Shown here piece after piece: positions 11,941 through 17,612 of a stretch of 64,000 bases of DNA. Within the stretch, counting starts at the first letter, position 1, and every line of letters starts with the position of its first letter. Made by a program: the position numbers and the translations under genes. Origin of the DNA: Caenimonas aquaedulcis. Its GTDB lineage: Bacteria > Pseudomonadota > Gammaproteobacteria > Burkholderiales > Burkholderiaceae_C. The stretch lies in assembly GCF_015831345.1 (NCBI RefSeq), contig NZ_JADWYS010000001.1, forward strand, positions 3,004,618-3,068,617, given 5' to 3'. Below the pieces are notes generated by a model. That model saw only the letters and a list, made by a program, of their open reading frames with translations. It had not been told where the DNA came from and searched no databases.

Positions 11941-12437
11941 AACGCCGCACAGTGCTCCTGTCCGCGGCAGCCTCCGTAGCGCTGGCAGGCTGCGGCTTCC
12001 AGCTGCGCCAGGCGCCGCACTTTGCCTTCGACAGCATCTATGTCGCGGCCGCGCCGAGCTCGTCGCTCGGCACGGAGCTCAAGCGCACCATCGCCTTCAG
12101 CGACGGCCTCAAGGTCATCAACGACGCTTCGGGCCTGACGACGGCGCAGGTCGTGCTGGACGTGCTGACGGACACGCGCGAAAAGGTCGTCGTCGGCCTG
12201 ACCGCTTCCGGCCAGGTGCGGGAGTTCCAGCTGCGCACGCGGCTGAAATTCAAGCTTCGCACGCCGCAGGGCAAGGAGCTGATCCCGGAGACCGAGCTGC
12301 TGCAGCAGCGCGACATCAGCTTCAACGAATCCGCGGTGCTCGCGAAAGAGTCCGAGGAGAACCTGCTGTACCGCGACATGCAGAAGGACATCGTTCAGCA
12401 GCTGATGCGGCGCCTCGCGGCCCTCAAGAGCATCTAG
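11937..12437 (+). CDS. lptE: LPS-assembly lipoprotein LptE
   Basis: 166 residues; ATGA overlap with leuS. The signal peptide has two arginines and lipobox LAGC, with the lipidated Cys at residue 19, then GFQLRQ, the usual LptE mature start. LptE plugs the LptD barrel and completes LPS export to the outer leaflet; lptA and lptB of the same pathway lie near 46 kb. In related genomes holA normally follows directly. Here a regulator and an arginine enzyme intervene. Confidence 0.93.
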
Positions 12438-12446
12438 CTCGCGCCC

Positions 12447-12917
12447 ATGCAGCTCGATCGCGTCGACCTCAAGCTGCTGGAGATGCTGCAGCAGGACGGC
12501 CGCCGCCCGGTGCAGGCGCTGTCCGAGGAAGTCCACCTGTCGGCGCGCGCGACGCTCAATCGTGTGCGCCGTCTCGAGGCGGAAGGCGCGATCGAGGGCT
12601 ACCGCGCCCTCATCAGCCGCTCCGCGATGGGCGAGCTGGTGTCCGTTTTCGCAGAAATCGCGCTGAAGGACCAGCGCCAGTCCGCGATCCAGCGTTTCGA
12701 AAAGCGCATGGCCGCGACGCCCGAGGTGGTGGCCTGCTACGTGATCAGCGGCCGCTACGACTACATCGCGCGCATCGCCTGCCCGCACCTGAACCACTAC
12801 CACCAGTTGATCAATGCCTGGCTGGACGACACCGCGCTCGGGGTCGAGAAGATCGTGACAAACATCGAGCTGCAGACGATCAAGGAATTCACGGGCTTTC
12901 CCGTTCCGCGCGAATAG
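12447..12917 (+). CDS. Lrp/AsnC family transcriptional regulator
   Basis: 156 residues. N-terminal helix-turn-helix of the AsnC type (LDRVDLKLLEMLQQDGR, then LSARATLNRVRRLE) and a C-terminal RAM effector domain (about residues 70-145) that binds amino acids. It lies 131 bases upstream of the arginine/ornithine enzyme on the same strand, so I infer that it senses an amino acid of that pathway and controls that gene. A 21-bp palindrome between them is a candidate site. Confidence 0.9.
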   Translation: MQLDRVDLKLLEMLQQDGRRPVQALSEEVHLSARATLNRVRRLEAEGAIEGYRALISRSAMGELVSVFAEIALKDQRQSAIQRFEKRMAATPEVVACYVISGRYDYIARIACPHLNHYHQLINAWLDDTALGVEKIVTNIELQTIKEFTGFPVPRE

Positions 12918-12927
12918 GCGTTGGGCG

Positions 12928-12948
12928 TCACTTCCGATTCGGAAGTGA
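12928..12948. promoter_or_regulatory. 21-bp palindrome, candidate operator
   Basis: TCACTTCCGA (12928-12937), one T, then TCGGAAGTGA (12939-12948): perfect ten-base arms. It lies 10 bases past the regulator stop and about 100 bases before the next start. No T-run follows, so an operator, perhaps for the adjacent Lrp-type protein, is more likely than a terminator. Confidence 0.5.
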
Positions 12949-13048
12949 ATGCATGAAATTCCTGCGATTGCGGCTGCGCCGCCGCTGCCGAATCACGCCT
13001 GCCGAAGCGGCAGCGCACCTAAACTTGGCGCATCCACAGGAGCATTTC

Positions 13049-15247
13049 ATGGACGCATCGACCGTCAGCACCACGCAGAACTTCATTGGCAAGGAAGCCC
13101 GCTGGGGCGCCCGCAACTACCAGCCGGTGCCCGTGGTCGTCGATCATGCGCGCGACTGCCTGGTCTGGGACGTCGAGGGGCGCACCTACATCGACATGAT
13201 GGGTGCGTATTCCGCCGTCAGCCACGGCCACCTGCACCCGCGCATCGTCGCGGCCGCCGAGCGCCAGCTCGGCCGCGTGGCCGTGACGTCCCGTGCGTAC
13301 CACGGCACCACGCTCGGCCCCTTCCTGGAAAAGCTGTGCGCCATCGCGGGCTTCGAGCGCGCGCTCCCGATGAACACCGGCGCCGAGGCCGTGGAGACGG
13401 CGATCAAGTGCGCGCGCCGCTGGGGCCACTTCGTCAAGGGAATCGCCGACGGCCGGCAGGAGATCCTCGTCGCGCGCGGCAACTTCCACGGCCGCACCAG
13501 CACCATCGTCGGCTTCTCCAGCGAGCCGGAATACCGCGCGGGCTTCGGGCCCTTCGCGCCGGGCTTCGCCCATTTCGATTTCGGGGACATGGACAGCGTG
13601 CGCGCGGCGGCGACGGGCAACACCTGCGCCGTGCTGGTCGAGCCGATCCAGGGCGAGGCCGGGGTGATCGTTCCGCCGGCAGGCTTCTTCGCCGAGCTGC
13701 GCGAGTGGTGCACGAAGAACAACGTGCTGCTGATCATCGACGAGGTGCAATCCGGCCTCGGCCGCACGGGCCGCTGGTTCGCATTCGAACATGAAGGCAT
13801 CCGGCCCGACGCGCTGATCCTGGGCAAGGCGCTCGGTGGCGGCCTGCTGCCGGTGAGCGCATTCCTCGCGGACGACGCGGTGATGGGCGTCTTCAATCCG
13901 GGCAGCCACGGCTCGACCTTCGGCGGCAACGCCCTGGCGGCGGCCGTCGCGCTCGAAGGCCTGAAGGTGATCGAGGATGAAAACCTCGTGGCCCGCAGCG
14001 CGGCGCTGGGCGAATACCTGAACAAGCGCCTGCGCGAAGTCGCCGCGGAAGCCGCGCCCCTGGTGCGCGCCGTGCGGGGCCGCGGGCTGTGGGTCGGCGT
14101 GGACATCGACCCGGCGCACGCCACGGCGCGCGAGCTGGTGGAAAAGCTCGCCGCGGGCGGCGTGCTGTCCAAGGAAACGCACGACACGGTGATCCGCTTC
14201 GCGCCGCCGCTCACCATCACCAAGGCGCTCGTCGACCGCGCGGTGCAGGTCTTCAGGCAAGTCCTGCTTGACAAACGCGCGCGGCTAGCTATTAATTCGA
14301 TAGCGGCAGCCAGACCGGCTGCCGCGACGTCACCCAGCGAGGTCACCGCCCGAGTGAAAGCCCAGGACACCGTTCCTCAGCTTCTCATGAGCCCACCCGA
14401 TTACTTCGAGGTGGCCTACGCCATCAATCCCTGGATGAAACCCGAGCAGTGGTCGCTCGACGCGAAGCGCCTGTCGCGCGATGCGCTGGCGGGCTGGAAC
14501 GCGTTGCGCGCGCGCTACGAATCGCTGGGCGCGCATGTCTCGGTCAAGCCGGCGGTCAAGGGCCTGCCGGACCTCGTCTTCACCGCGAACTGCGCGGTGG
14601 TGCTGGACGGCAAGGCGGTGATGGCGCGCTACCTCAACGCGGAGCGTGCCGGCGAGGAAGCGCACGGCCAGCGCATGTTCGAGCAGCTGAAGGCGCGCGG
14701 CGACATCGACGCGATCCTGCACACGCCCGAGGGTGTGTACTTCGAGGGCGCGGGCGACGCGATCTACGACGCGGGCCGCAAGCTGATGTGGATGGGCTAC
14801 GGCCAGCGCTCCAGCCGCTTCGCGCACCACACGATCGAGCAGGCGTTCGGCATCCCGACCTTCTCGCTGGAACTGGTGGACCCGCATTACTACCACCTCG
14901 ACACGGCGTTCTGCCTGCTCTCGGGCGGCGACGTCGTGTACCACCCGGCCGCCTTCACCGAAGAGGGACGTGCGCAGATCCGCGCCATCGTCGGCGACAA
15001 GCTGATCGAGGCGCCGCAGGAGGACGCGGAGAACCTGGGCGTGAATTCGGTGTGCTTCGGCGCGGACGTGGTGCTGTGCCATTGCTCGGATGCGCTGCGC
15101 GCCACGCTGGAAGCGCGGGGCTATCGCGTGCACGTGGTGCCGCTCGGTTCCTTCAATCGCTCGGGCGGCGCGGCCTATTGCCTCACCTTGCGGCTGGACA
15201 ACCTCTACAAGGGACGCACGCGGGGCGGCGAGAAGCTGGCGGCTTAA
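13049..15247 (+). CDS. Fused ornithine aminotransferase - ArgZ-type arginine dihydrolase
   Basis: One uninterrupted 732-residue frame, ATG at 13049 after CAGGAG. Residues 1-405 are a class III aminotransferase of the ornithine-delta type: PLP Lys260 in LGKALGGG, metal/cofactor DEVQSGLGRTG at 231-241. Residues about 436-732 match the amidinotransferase-fold arginine dihydrolase of cyanobacterial ArgZ/AgrE: MSPPDYFEVAYAINPWM with Asn460, FTANCAV with Asn514, FEGAGD Glu566, YHLD His616 and Cys711 in GGAAYCLTL. Predicted chemistry is arginine to ornithine plus ammonia and CO2, then ornithine to glutamate semialdehyde. The linker (about 408-435) encodes two hairpin repeats. A GTG at 14354 with GAGGT upstream and an ATG at 14387 could also start the second domain alone. 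Plain arginine deiminase activity remains an alternative. Confidence 0.85.
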   Translation: MDASTVSTTQNFIGKEARWGARNYQPVPVVVDHARDCLVWDVEGRTYIDMMGAYSAVSHGHLHPRIVAAAERQLGRVAVTSRAYHGTTLGPFLEKLCAIAGFERALPMNTGAEAVETAIKCARRWGHFVKGIADGRQEILVARGNFHGRTSTIVGFSSEPEYRAGFGPFAPGFAHFDFGDMDSVRAAATGNTCAVLVEPIQGEAGVIVPPAGFFAELREWCTKNNVLLIIDEVQSGLGRTGRWFAFEHEGIRPDALILGKALGGGLLPVSAFLADDAVMGVFNPGSHGSTFGGNALAAAVALEGLKVIEDENLVARSAALGEYLNKRLREVAAEAAPLVRAVRGRGLWVGVDIDPAHATARELVEKLAAGGVLSKETHDTVIRFAPPLTITKALVDRAVQVFRQVLLDKRARLAINSIAAARPAAATSPSEVTARVKAQDTVPQLLMSPPDYFEVAYAINPWMKPEQWSLDAKRLSRDALAGWNALRARYESLGAHVSVKPAVKGLPDLVFTANCAVVLDGKAVMARYLNAERAGEEAHGQRMFEQLKARGDIDAILHTPEGVYFEGAGDAIYDAGRKLMWMGYGQRSSRFAHHTIEQAFGIPTFSLELVDPHYYHLDTAFCLLSGGDVVYHPAAFTEEGRAQIRAIVGDKLIEAPQEDAENLGVNSVCFGADVVLCHCSDALRATLEARGYRVHVVPLGSFNRSGGAAYCLTLRLDNLYKGRTRGGEKLAA
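14286..14323 (+). repeat. Double short palindromic repeat inside the fusion linker
   Basis: Two consecutive hairpins: GCTAT (14288-14292) with ATAGC (14300-14304), then GGCAGCC (14305-14311) with GGCTGCC (14317-14323). The first resembles AT-rich GCTATTAATT-type small palindromes that I recall as dispersed intergenic repeats in Comamonadaceae. Here it is translated in frame between two enzyme domains, in a locally AT-rich patch unlike its neighbours. Confidence 0.6.
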
Positions 15248-15256
15248 ACTCACCGG

Positions 15257-16321
15257 ATGCAGCTCGCCGCGCCCCAAGTCACCGCCCACCTGCAAAAGGG
15301 GCTGCGCTCCCTCTATACGCTGCACGGGGACGAGCCGCTGCTGATCCAGGAAGCCGCCGACGCGATCCGCGCGGCGGCGCGCGCGCAGGGCTACACGGAA
15401 CGCACGGTACACACCGTGTCCGGCGCGCACTTCGACTGGAGCGAGGTGCTCGCGGCCGGCGGCTCGCTCAGCCTCTTCGCGGACCGGCAGATCGTCGAGA
15501 TCCGCATCCCTTCGGGCAAGCCCGGCAAGGAAGGCAGCCCGGCGCTGCAGCAGCTTGCCGAAAGCGCGAGCGGCAACGACAGCACGCTCACGCTGGTGCT
15601 CCTGCCCAGGCTCGATCGCGTGACGCGCGGGGGCGCGTGGTTCGGCGCACTCGAAGCCAACGGCGTCACCATCCAGGTGGACCCGGTGGAGCGCGCCGCG
15701 CTCCCGCAATGGATCGCCCAGCGCCTCGCGGCGCAGGGCCAGCGCGTGGTCGCGGGCGACGAAGGCCAGCGCACGCTGCAGTTCTTCGCGGACCGCGTGG
15801 AGGGCAACCTGCTCGCCGCGCACCAGGAAATCCAGAAACTCGCGCTGCTGTATCCGGCGGGCGAGCTCGGCTTCGAGCAGGTGGAGAGCGCCGTGCTCAA
15901 CGTCGCGCGCTACGACGTGTTCAAGCTGTCGGAGGCGGTCCTGGCCGGCCAAACCGGGCGCGTGCAGCGCATGCTGGACGGGCTCAAGGCGGAAGGGGAG
16001 GCGGAGGTGCTGGTGCACTACACGCTGTCGGAAGACATCCGCGCGCTCAAGCGCGTGAAGGACGCGATGGCCGCGGGACGGCCGCTGCCGATGGCCCTGA
16101 AGGAGCAGCGCGTGTGGGGCCTGAAGGAGCGGCTCTACGAGCGCGTGCTGCCGCGGCTCACCGCCACGTCGCTGGACAACCTGCTGCACTCCGCGCACCT
16201 GGTCGACGGGATCGTCAAGGGATTGAAGGCGCCCGACTGGCCGAGCGACGGCTGGCAGGCGCTGCACCGGCTCGCCTTCGCGCTGTGCCGCGAATGCACG
16301 GTCTCCCCCGCCCGGGGATAA
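15257..16321 (+). CDS. holA: DNA polymerase III subunit delta
   Basis: 354 residues. The N-terminal [20 protein letters not shown] is the HolA signature, followed by the AAA+-like body and the C-terminal domain ending in WQALHRLAF. Delta opens the beta clamp in the clamp loader. It starts 9 bases after the preceding gene. A TAAACT hexamer at 15245-15250 lies six bases upstream and no Shine-Dalgarno is seen. Its TAA overlaps the putative -10 of proA. Confidence 0.94.
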
Positions 16322-16331: not shown

Positions 16332-17612
16332 ATGAATGCGCTGAACGTCGCCGAATACATGCAGACGCTGGGCTTGCAGGCCCGGCAGGCAAGTGCCGCC
16401 ATGGCGCGCGCGGATGCCGCCACCCGCAACAAGGCCCTGCGCACATTGGCCGCATTGCTGCGCGCCAACGCGGCCTCCCTGCAGACCGACAACGAGAAGG
16501 ACCTCGCGCGCGCCGCGACATCCAGCCTGTCCGCGCCGATGGTCGACCGCCTGAAGCTCACGCCGAAGATCATCGAGACCGTCGCGCAAGGCTGCGAGCA
16601 GCTCGCCGCGATGCCCGACATCATCGGGGAGATCAGCGGCCTGCAGCAGCAGCCCAGCGGCATCCGCGTCGGGCGCATGCGCGTGCCCCTGGGCGTGTTC
16701 GGCATGATCTACGAGAGCCGGCCCAACGTCACCATCGAGGCGGCGAGCCTGTCCATCAAGAGCGGCAACGCGTGCATCCTGCGCGGCGGCTCGGAAGCCA
16801 TCGATTCGAACAAGGCGCTCGGCCGCCTGGTGCAGCAGGCGCTCGCGGAATCGGGCCTGCCCGCCGAGGCTGTGCAGCTGGTGCAGACCACCGACCGCGA
16901 AGCCGTCGGCCAGCTGATCGCGATGCCGCAGCACGTGGACGTGATCATTCCGCGCGGCGGCAAGGGCCTGATCGAGCGCATCAGCCGCGACGCGAAAGTC
17001 CCCGTCATCAAGCACCTGGACGGCAACTGCCATGTCTACGTGGACGACCCGTGCGACATCGACATGGCGGTGCGCGTGGCCGACAACGCCAAGACGCAGA
17101 AGTACAGCCCCTGCAACGCCATCGAAGGCCTGCTCGTGGCGCGCGCATCGGCGCAAGCGTTCCTGCCGAAGATCGCCGCGGTCTTCGCCGCGAAGGGCGT
17201 GGAGATGCGCTGCGACGCCGAAGCGAAGGCGCTCATCTCGCCCATCGCCCCCGCGCTCGTCAAGGACGCGACCGAGCAGGACTGGTTCGAGGAATACCTC
17301 GCGCCGGTCATCAGCATCAAGTTGGTCGCGGGCCTGGACGAAGCCATCGCGCACATCAACCACTACTCCAGCCATCACACCGACGCGATCATCACGCGGG
17401 ACCACATGCACGCGCAGCGGTTCCTGCGCGAGGTCGATTCGGCGAGCGTGATGGTCAATGCGAGCCCGCGCTTCGCCGACGGCTTCGAGTTCGGCCTCGG
17501 CGCGGAGATCGGCATCAGCACCGACAAGTTCCACGCACGCGGGCCCGTGGGCCTGGAAGGCCTCACCTCGCTCAAGTGGGTGGTGCTGGGCAACGGCGAA
17601 CTGCGCTCGTGA
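16332..17612 (+). CDS. proA: Gamma-glutamyl phosphate reductase (glutamate-5-semialdehyde dehydrogenase)
   Basis: 426 residues, full length. It makes glutamate-5-semialdehyde for proline from glutamyl phosphate. Family motifs are [19 protein letters not shown] (residues about 117-135), the catalytic-Cys region YSPCNAIEG (about 257-265) and the C-terminal [12 protein letters not shown]. Its product is also the product of the aminotransferase domain encoded 1 kb upstream. The stop overlaps the next start (GTGA). Confidence 0.97.

Follow-up and report, generated by a model that had tools for sequence, protein, structure and literature searches.

An in-frame fusion of ornithine aminotransferase with an ArgZ-type domain in Caenimonas aquaedulcis, probably a bifunctional enzyme of arginine catabolism

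A single gene of Caenimonas aquaedulcis, a soil-type bacterium, probably encodes a bifunctional arginine-catabolic enzyme that would take arginine through ornithine to glutamate-5-semialdehyde, probably under the control of an Lrp/AsnC-family regulator acting at a palindrome at 12929-12947. The DNA analyzed, called the window throughout, is a stretch of 64,000 nucleotides (contig NZ_JADWYS010000001.1, positions 3,004,618 to 3,068,617), and the gene lies at 13049-15247 on its plus strand, as do all other features given with coordinates here. It encodes 732 amino acids and a stop codon, arranged as an ornithine aminotransferase (OAT) domain (residues 1-406; 13049-14266), a scarcely conserved linker (residues 407-443; 14267-14377) and a guanidine-modifying domain of the ArgZ/AgrE type (residues 444-732; 14378-15244), the expected arginine dihydrolase. 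In the proposed mechanism, the ArgZ-type domain would form an adduct with L-arginine at Cys711 and hydrolyze it to L-ornithine, releasing two ammonia and CO2, and the pyridoxal phosphate (PLP) domain would pass the delta-amino group of ornithine to 2-oxoglutarate, yielding glutamate-5-semialdehyde and glutamate. A second glutamate would then come from the semialdehyde through pyrroline-5-carboxylate dehydrogenase, a PutA-type version of which is encoded in the window's genome. We infer both activities and the direction of flux, and this predicted chemistry is well supported by residues and genomic context. No description of an OAT-ArgZ fusion was found in the full-text literature searched, a search that subscription journals mostly fell outside, and the gene is apparently undescribed so far. 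An earlier note on this DNA, made from the letters alone, had known of no described example; that part of the statement agrees with the literature searched, although the fusion itself is not unique and has many homologues.

The fusion is a real, old and conserved gene and no accident. Its frame runs for 732 codons without interruption from an ATG at 13049, preceded by AGGAG at 13038-13042, to the stop codon, in agreement with the single 2.2-kb open frame of the earlier note, and the six residues that the note had singled out (K260, N460, N514, E566, H616 and C711) are all where it had placed them. A stop or frameshift near 14,270-14,390, which it had named as a finding that would refute the fusion, does not occur in the window sequence. 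The note had also proposed a search for other genes with the same two-domain order, and 118 of 120 homologues among the matches listed are full-length proteins with both domains, which argues against an accidental joining. Pfam places Aminotran_3 at residues 21-406 and DDAH_eukar at residues 470-680 of the fusion, and the six residues are invariant in 119/119 sequences, that of the window included. The linker is 15-61 amino acids long across 119 homologues with little conservation; it is disordered and variable, its residues 418-439 being modeled with pLDDT below 50. Near-identical database entries carry the names Ramlibacter, Caenimonas and Variovorax, which would point to Ramlibacter, broadly taken, as the genus of the window; Variovorax terrae and Caenimonas soli are among the species with a fused protein in the homologue list. 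There is an annotation gap, in that the listed full-length homologues, where they are named, bear an aminotransferase name only. An assembly artefact or a chance open frame in GC-rich DNA could be imagined here, as long spurious frames arise in GC-rich genes and several were seen in the window, but this explanation is already refuted and retains next to no probability: the homologues are two-domain and full-length, the OAT half and the ArgZ half alike show pairwise dN/dS of 0.07-0.29 (9 pairs each), and the same neighborhood recurs across loci.

By its Pfam, NCBIfam and PDB sequence matches, domain 1 is an ornithine aminotransferase. It matches Pfam PF00202 at residues 21-406 and passes the OAT model TIGR01885 with 470.4 bits against a cut-off of 378.4; a second OAT model, PRK04073, gives 503.5, under its cut-off of 656. 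Lys260 (codon 13826-13828) is the PLP-binding lysine and aligns with Lys292 of human OAT. In the same alignment, window residues Y24, Y54, R149, E203, K260 and R383 are identical to human Y55, Y85, R180, E235, K292 and R413, and all six are invariant among 46 homologues; we take human Y55, Y85, R180, E235 and R413 to be OAT substrate residues. A structure comparison of the fusion has OATs as its top matches and the PDB sequence matches agree, the OAT fold alone not separating OAT from acetylornithine aminotransferase. The proposal that this class III aminotransferase with PLP Lys260 is an OAT is thus borne out by a TIGR01885 score above the cut-off and by the retained substrate residues.

Domain 2 has as its nearest solved relatives AgrE (Alr4995, 6lrf) and ArgZ (Sll1336, 6jv0 and others), both at E values of about 1e-50, and its matches to DDAH 1 chains have E values no better than 0.04. 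It is identical to Sll1336 at 103 of 263 positions (39%), and N460, N514, E566, H616 and C711 align with chain positions 24, 73, 120, 170 and 266 of that protein, which, assuming an offset of two residues, are presumably N22, N71, E118, H168 and C264 of ArgZ, residues to which we also assign their catalytic roles. The codon of Asn514, the counterpart of ArgZ N71, lies at 14588-14590, and that of Cys711, the expected nucleophile (ArgZ C264), at 15179-15181. Opposite window N514 the deposited variant 6juz carries Ser, and opposite window C711 6lrh carries Ala, so others had singled out these two positions. Arginine deiminase has Asp at the Asn514 position, as seen in two congeners whose arginine deiminases were aligned with domain 2 (hhalign probability 83%, E 9e-6), and the arginine deiminase model TIGR01078 gave no match to domain 2 up to E 0.1. 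The assignment of domain 2 rests on sequence, the list of structure matches having been filled by the OAT half. An AgrE-like C-terminal cyclodeaminase is absent, as domain 2 ends the protein and its partner is the N-terminal OAT. The evidence supports a domain that would work like ArgZ yet stands outside the curated arginine dihydrolase family NF052232. The ArgZ/AgrE type proposed in the earlier note, with the five residues named for it, is supported by these sequence matches.

The best argument for ornithine as the product of the ArgZ-type domain is its partner context. Partner genes were surveyed at 80 named ArgZ-like loci (the best 80 of 584 confirmed), with adjacent meaning on the same strand and less than 600 bp away, and in 58 of them a gene for an ornithine consumer is either fused to the ArgZ-like gene or adjacent to it. 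Five of these are fused to OAT and nine adjoin OAT, 19 are AgrE-length fusions, 12 adjoin a stand-alone ornithine cyclodeaminase-like gene and 13 adjoin a gene resembling the C-terminal part of AgrE. Three cyclodeaminases checked by NCBIfam scored 518-534 bits against a cut-off of 350, and the other cyclodeaminase-like partners gave 402-531 bits to one of these three; the AgrE-type partner genes gave 283-709 bits, save one (L049) with 66 bits over part of its length, this AgrE-type C-terminal part being called a cyclodeaminase on the authority of the literature. A standing ornithine-consuming partner points to ornithine as the product. Ornithine carbamoyltransferase, which would be expected beside a citrulline-forming enzyme, is adjacent to the ArgZ-like gene in none of the 80 loci (one 45-bit match lies about 3 kb away), and this weighs against citrulline.

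Two other assignments of domain 2 have to be weighed against this reading. It could be a deiminase or dimethylargininase giving citrulline, in which case the fusion would join two unconnected steps; Pfam and NCBIfam do name the family DDAH, and its best NCBIfam score is to NF045659 (DiMArgaseDdahMtb). With Asn instead of the arginine deiminase Asp at 514, with DDAH 1 chains matching so poorly and with the partner genes just described, we regard a citrulline-forming enzyme as unlikely. Alternatively, another guanidino substrate (for example agmatine, canavanine or a modified arginine) might be used and the aminotransferase might take the matching product, a view that gains from the fact that domain 2 exceeds no curated cut-off and that an arginase in the window's genome already covers arginine, but every ArgZ residue is retained and ornithine enzymes recur as partners, which makes such a substrate more improbable still.

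Several observations weigh against an arginine-to-semialdehyde enzyme, or at least against its being required. The arginine dihydrolase model NF052232 (Arg_dihydro) gives 208.5 bits on domain 2 against a cut-off of 450, and the Mycobacterium-type dimethylargininase model NF045659 gives 219.2 against a cut-off of 300; neither is passed, and the domain is slightly nearer to the dimethylargininase model. In 22 of the 80 named loci no ornithine consumer was found near the ArgZ-like gene. Within the window's genus, 54 of 60 genomes have no match to domain 2 (nor do 42 of the 45 genomes whose completeness is 90% or more), and domain 2 is dispensable, since it is mostly absent from the genus and the OAT-only copies do not form one clade. 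Arginase scores above its cut-off in 57 of these 60 genomes and urease is present in 52, the window's own genome being among them in both cases, so the arginine step is redundant there and the fusion is not the sole route. Finally, in Mycobacterium tuberculosis, where a comparable gene pair occurs, rocD itself is reported as broken (PMC4569260). Taken with the residues and the partner context, the fusion is probably a regulated extra route that would free both guanidine nitrogens as ammonia without urea, and it would break down arginine for its nitrogen. A role of ArgZ as a simple replacement for arginase was considered and rejected, as arginase is not missing where ArgZ occurs, and urease gave no contrast as a replacement test either. 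Arginine deiminase had matches in two of the 60 genomes (481 and 489 bits against a cut-off of 489.1) and none in that of the window.

Among the closest known arrangements is AgrE, in which arginine dihydrolase and ornithine-consuming activities are combined in one protein (PMC8262935). Shared with AgrE and ArgZ (Alr4995, Sll1336) are the named residues and the rank of nearest solved structures by sequence, and shared with AgrE is a dihydrolase domain fused to an ornithine-consuming domain, so that one polypeptide would go beyond ornithine. The ornithine consumer of AgrE is a C-terminal ornithine cyclodeaminase, whereas that of the window fusion is an N-terminal PLP aminotransferase; proline is the product there, and glutamate-5-semialdehyde the expected product here. 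The window's ArgZ domain also belongs to another ArgZ clade, grouping with proteobacterial genes outside the AgrE clade, and on this sequence evidence the OAT-ArgZ protein is a fusion parallel to AgrE and not AgrE with a swapped partner. The suggestion of an AgrE counterpart with a different ornithine consumer and reversed domain order, made in the earlier note, therefore holds, given the OAT model and the ArgZ/AgrE matches. If this reading is true, the fusion would be a second, independent solution to the problem solved by AgrE, namely tying an ammonia-releasing arginine hydrolase to an enzyme that removes its product, and comparing the two proteins would be a natural way to learn what fusions of this kind gain in channeling, stoichiometry and regulation. 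AgrE-length ArgZ proteins were also seen in five records not labeled cyanobacteria (L052, L054, L060, L069 and L102), four of which are labeled Verrucomicrobia or a class of it.

Unfused relatives show related pairings. The OAT-ArgZ operons of Oxalobacteraceae (Herbaspirillum, Herminiimonas and Noviherbaspirillum) share the order of OAT followed by ArgZ and an adjoining Lrp-family gene, but there the genes are separate, the Lrp gene is divergent and the ArgZ is nearer to the AgrE group. Operons of Lrp, ArgZ and ornithine cyclodeaminase in Cupriavidus and Pigmentiphaga share a related ArgZ subfamily, an ornithine consumer and an Lrp gene, and differ in that the partner is a stand-alone ornithine cyclodeaminase; three loci (L034, L040 and L044; Cupriavidus, Pigmentiphaga and a draft genome) carry such operons with a divergent Lrp gene. 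A precedent for the proposed route is reported from M. tuberculosis (PMC4569260), where the rocD-Rv2323c cluster with its neighboring regulator is induced by arginine, Rv2323c is needed for arginine use, and carbon reaches ornithine and proline although no arginase was found. Like the window, this cluster brings an OAT gene together with one of the ArgZ/DDAH kind, close to a regulator gene. In Nonomuraea (L015), OAT and an Rv2323c-type gene are adjacent, yet as two genes in reverse order, and this copy belongs to the Mtb-type dimethylargininase subfamily (410 bits against the cut-off of 300, compared with 219 for the window domain). With Asn in the place of N514 and OAT next to it, the Nonomuraea relative of Rv2323c fits a dihydrolase better than its dimethylargininase label. 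The fusion also suggests that, among bacterial genes called dimethylargininase, some of those beside an ornithine enzyme are arginine dihydrolases.

Two regulatory features, an Lrp-linked palindrome and a sigma-70-like promoter in the codons of the linker, are new here. The Lrp/AsnC-family regulator gene lies at 12447-12917 (Pfam PF01037 and PF13404), and it is followed by the 19-bp palindrome CACTTCCGATTCGGAAGTG at 12929-12947, whose core ends 104 nt upstream of the fusion start codon and through which the adjacent Lrp/AsnC protein would probably control expression. The core, CTTCCGNNNCGGAAG, was derived from 11 Lrp-bearing loci and then scored in all family loci. It is present with at most two mismatches in 28/28 family loci with Lrp (22 exact, four with one mismatch and two with two), lying 90-139 nt upstream of the first aligned OAT residue, and it is absent from 7/7 family loci without Lrp, where the best matches have 3-5 mismatches. 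Neither the seven Lrp-less loci nor the other 17 with Lrp entered the derivation of the pattern, though all are related. Within the window the core is the sole match within one mismatch, with 0.33 expected. The palindrome is absent from nine loci that belong to other families and each carry a different Lrp-family gene, one of them (L028) reaching two mismatches at another distance. There is good evidence from these sequences for a putative operator of the neighboring Lrp regulator. In four loci (L159-L162) the Lrp gene lies 657-664 bp from OAT and the palindrome is still found 135-139 nt before OAT.

The most surprising part is the putative linker promoter. Because the linker DNA carries both promoter-like and start-like signals, the gene may have products besides the single fused polypeptide. 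The promoter-like element lies within the coding sequence at 14268-14295 and consists of TTGACA (14268-14273), a spacer of 16 nt and TATTAA (14290-14295), and in an alignment of the linker DNA of four congeners both hexamers are invariant and the spacer is variable. A possible internal translation start at 14345-14362 is formed by GAGG (14345-14348), 11 nt and GTG (14360-14362, codon 438), the latter being the would-be start of the separate ArgZ gene in G003, a draft genome with 9% contamination. Of the 18 ArgZ-bearing family loci, 12 reach a promoter-like score of at least 9 out of 12 in their linker (the four discovery loci and eight scored later), and control windows from the same gene never attain the linker score; near the end of OAT, none of 17 OAT-only loci reaches 9 (highest score 8). 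When 1000 synonymous versions were generated with amino acids and the gene's own codon usage fixed, the P values were 0.001-0.005 in each of the 11 fused genes scoring at least 9, and the remaining 11 of 22 fused genes show nothing in this test. In-frame ATG or GTG codons with a Shine-Dalgarno-like sequence account for 13 of 40 linker starts versus 59 of 1020 elsewhere and occur in the linkers of 12 of the 22 fused genes (codon-shuffle P 0.0005); with amino acids fixed they show nothing beyond synonymous recoding save in L026 (P 0.017) and L027 (P 0.011), and by themselves they are weak evidence. A stock promoter scanner, which requires T at the last -10 position, found no promoter in 12400-15300, and the window's linker -10 (TATTAA) is without that final T. 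One OAT-only locus (L141, genome G018) keeps GCTATCAAAAAAGGAG in its OAT tail, which resembles leftovers of -10 and ribosome-binding signals.

The downstream gene holA has a -10-like sequence of its own, TAAACT, which overlaps the fusion stop codon (15240-15256). An element of the form TA(A/C)A(C/A/T)T stands 13-18 nt before the holA start in 17/17 OAT-only loci and in 13/16 ArgZ-bearing loci with a readable holA (30/33; raw counts), so the linker element does not seem to be needed for holA, and a role for it as a holA-proA promoter is not favored.

These signals bear on whether the halves act mainly as separate polypeptides, or whether both forms exist, a fusion of 732 amino acids and a free ArgZ of about 295 amino acids made from the linker promoter and start; in such a history the fusion would have arisen by loss of a stop codon between adjacent genes, with ArgZ's own signals staying in the coding linker. 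The contrast between ArgZ-bearing and OAT-only loci in promoter score, the recoding result in each of the 11 genes, the start-like signals in 12 of 22 linkers, the -10-like element that holA has for itself and the separation of the genes at the linker point in G003, draft and contaminated as that genome is, all speak for it. However, the promoter score is not attained in six of the 18 family loci or in any of the five fused loci from elsewhere, the -10 of the window misses its last T and escapes the stock scanner, the start signals stay within synonymous recoding except in L026 and L027, and nine unfused pairs have no such promoter between the two genes. A role for a downstream gene is also possible; L154 and L164, which have no linker promoter, are loci where holA was also not found downstream. 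Separate or dual products come somewhat short of an even chance on this balance, and the bifunctional fusion described at the outset is retained as the preferred reading. Our reading is that across a large part of the family the fused frame probably conceals a promoter belonging to ArgZ, and that free ArgZ may be produced in addition to the fusion. A nested dual-output gene, in which an Lrp-controlled promoter would give the fusion, the linker promoter and internal start would give free ArgZ, and the ratio of the two activities could be set independently despite their shared frame, is put forward tentatively as possible. The linker promoter, if live, would offer a clear example of selection at the codon level within an everyday metabolic gene.

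The evidence favors a history in which a pair of once separate genes was joined in one main fusion and the ArgZ half was then lost repeatedly, because in the OAT tree the OAT-only rows are nested in the fused clade and are not one clade. In that tree, 17 OAT-only congeners and the split G003 fall inside a 73-row clade that is otherwise all fused (SH-aLRT 98), and a single clade of OAT-only rows is rejected (AU p 0.002). In the ArgZ tree a single clade (99) unites all 56 fused rows with G003 and G183, and AgrE and the Oxalobacteraceae genes sit in a separate clade (93). The two trees place a fused copy from a draft genome named Rhodospirillales (L030) differently, its ArgZ half falling within the fused clade and its OAT half outside. 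The trees were built by a quick method from fused rows that came from a fused-protein search, and the fused share of rows is not a measure of prevalence. A tblastn search of the ArgZ half against the OAT-holA interval of the 17 OAT-only loci found no remnant below E 0.27. The unfused OAT-ArgZ neighbors in Herbaspirillum, Herminiimonas, Noviherbaspirillum and several draft genomes likely represent the earlier state.

Among the 60 genomes of the genus, domain 2 occurs in six, fused in five and split in G003 (L002/L166), where OAT and ArgZ part at the linker with a GTGA overlap; the G003 linker is one base shorter than in the fused relatives, and the frame is broken there, either by a real split or by an error in the draft genome. 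A survey of 399 genomes of the family gave 22 matches to domain 2, six of them weak (E above 1e-6) and 16 strong, the latter comprising 14 fused copies, an ArgZ alone in G183 and a different stand-alone ArgZ in G205. In G183, a draft genome with two contigs concerned (L157 and L158), the ArgZ half stands alone directly after lptE, and OAT and Lrp were not found in the locus. A second survey of the 399 genomes detected OAT at E values of 1e-125 or lower in 42; 19 of these OATs are 74-100% identical to that of the window, 14 fused and five without a domain-2 match. The remaining type, a second OAT in 23 of the 399 genomes, is 56-62% identical and occurs in genomes that have no strong ArgZ match.

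In the window the fusion has as neighbors leuS, an lptE-like gene (41 bits, below the cut-off of 235) that ends 9 bp before the Lrp gene, holA and proA. An Lrp gene precedes OAT in 17/17 fused family loci, at 111-220 bp outside L159-L162, and an lptE-like gene was found in 16 of the 17, the remaining locus covering 463 bp upstream. Directly 3' of the fusion, holA is present in 14 of the 17 and was not found in L154, L164 and L017 within 3000, 892 and 433 bp downstream, respectively. The same lptE-OAT-holA order is kept in the 17 OAT-only congeners, 10 of them with Lrp. None of leuS, lptE, holA and proA occurs in the flanks examined of the five fused loci outside the family (L026-L030), and an Lrp gene stands beside all five. 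One fully fixed locus for all fused copies was accordingly rejected, in that the upstream arrangement holds and the downstream one varies, with holA in 14/17 and the five outside loci differing. In the window, holA begins 9 bp 3' of the fusion and extends over 15257-16321 (TIGR01128, 216 bits against a cut-off of 80), and it is followed at 16332-17612 by proA, a frequent neighbor that encodes glutamate-5-semialdehyde dehydrogenase (TIGR00407, 479 bits against a cut-off of 317).

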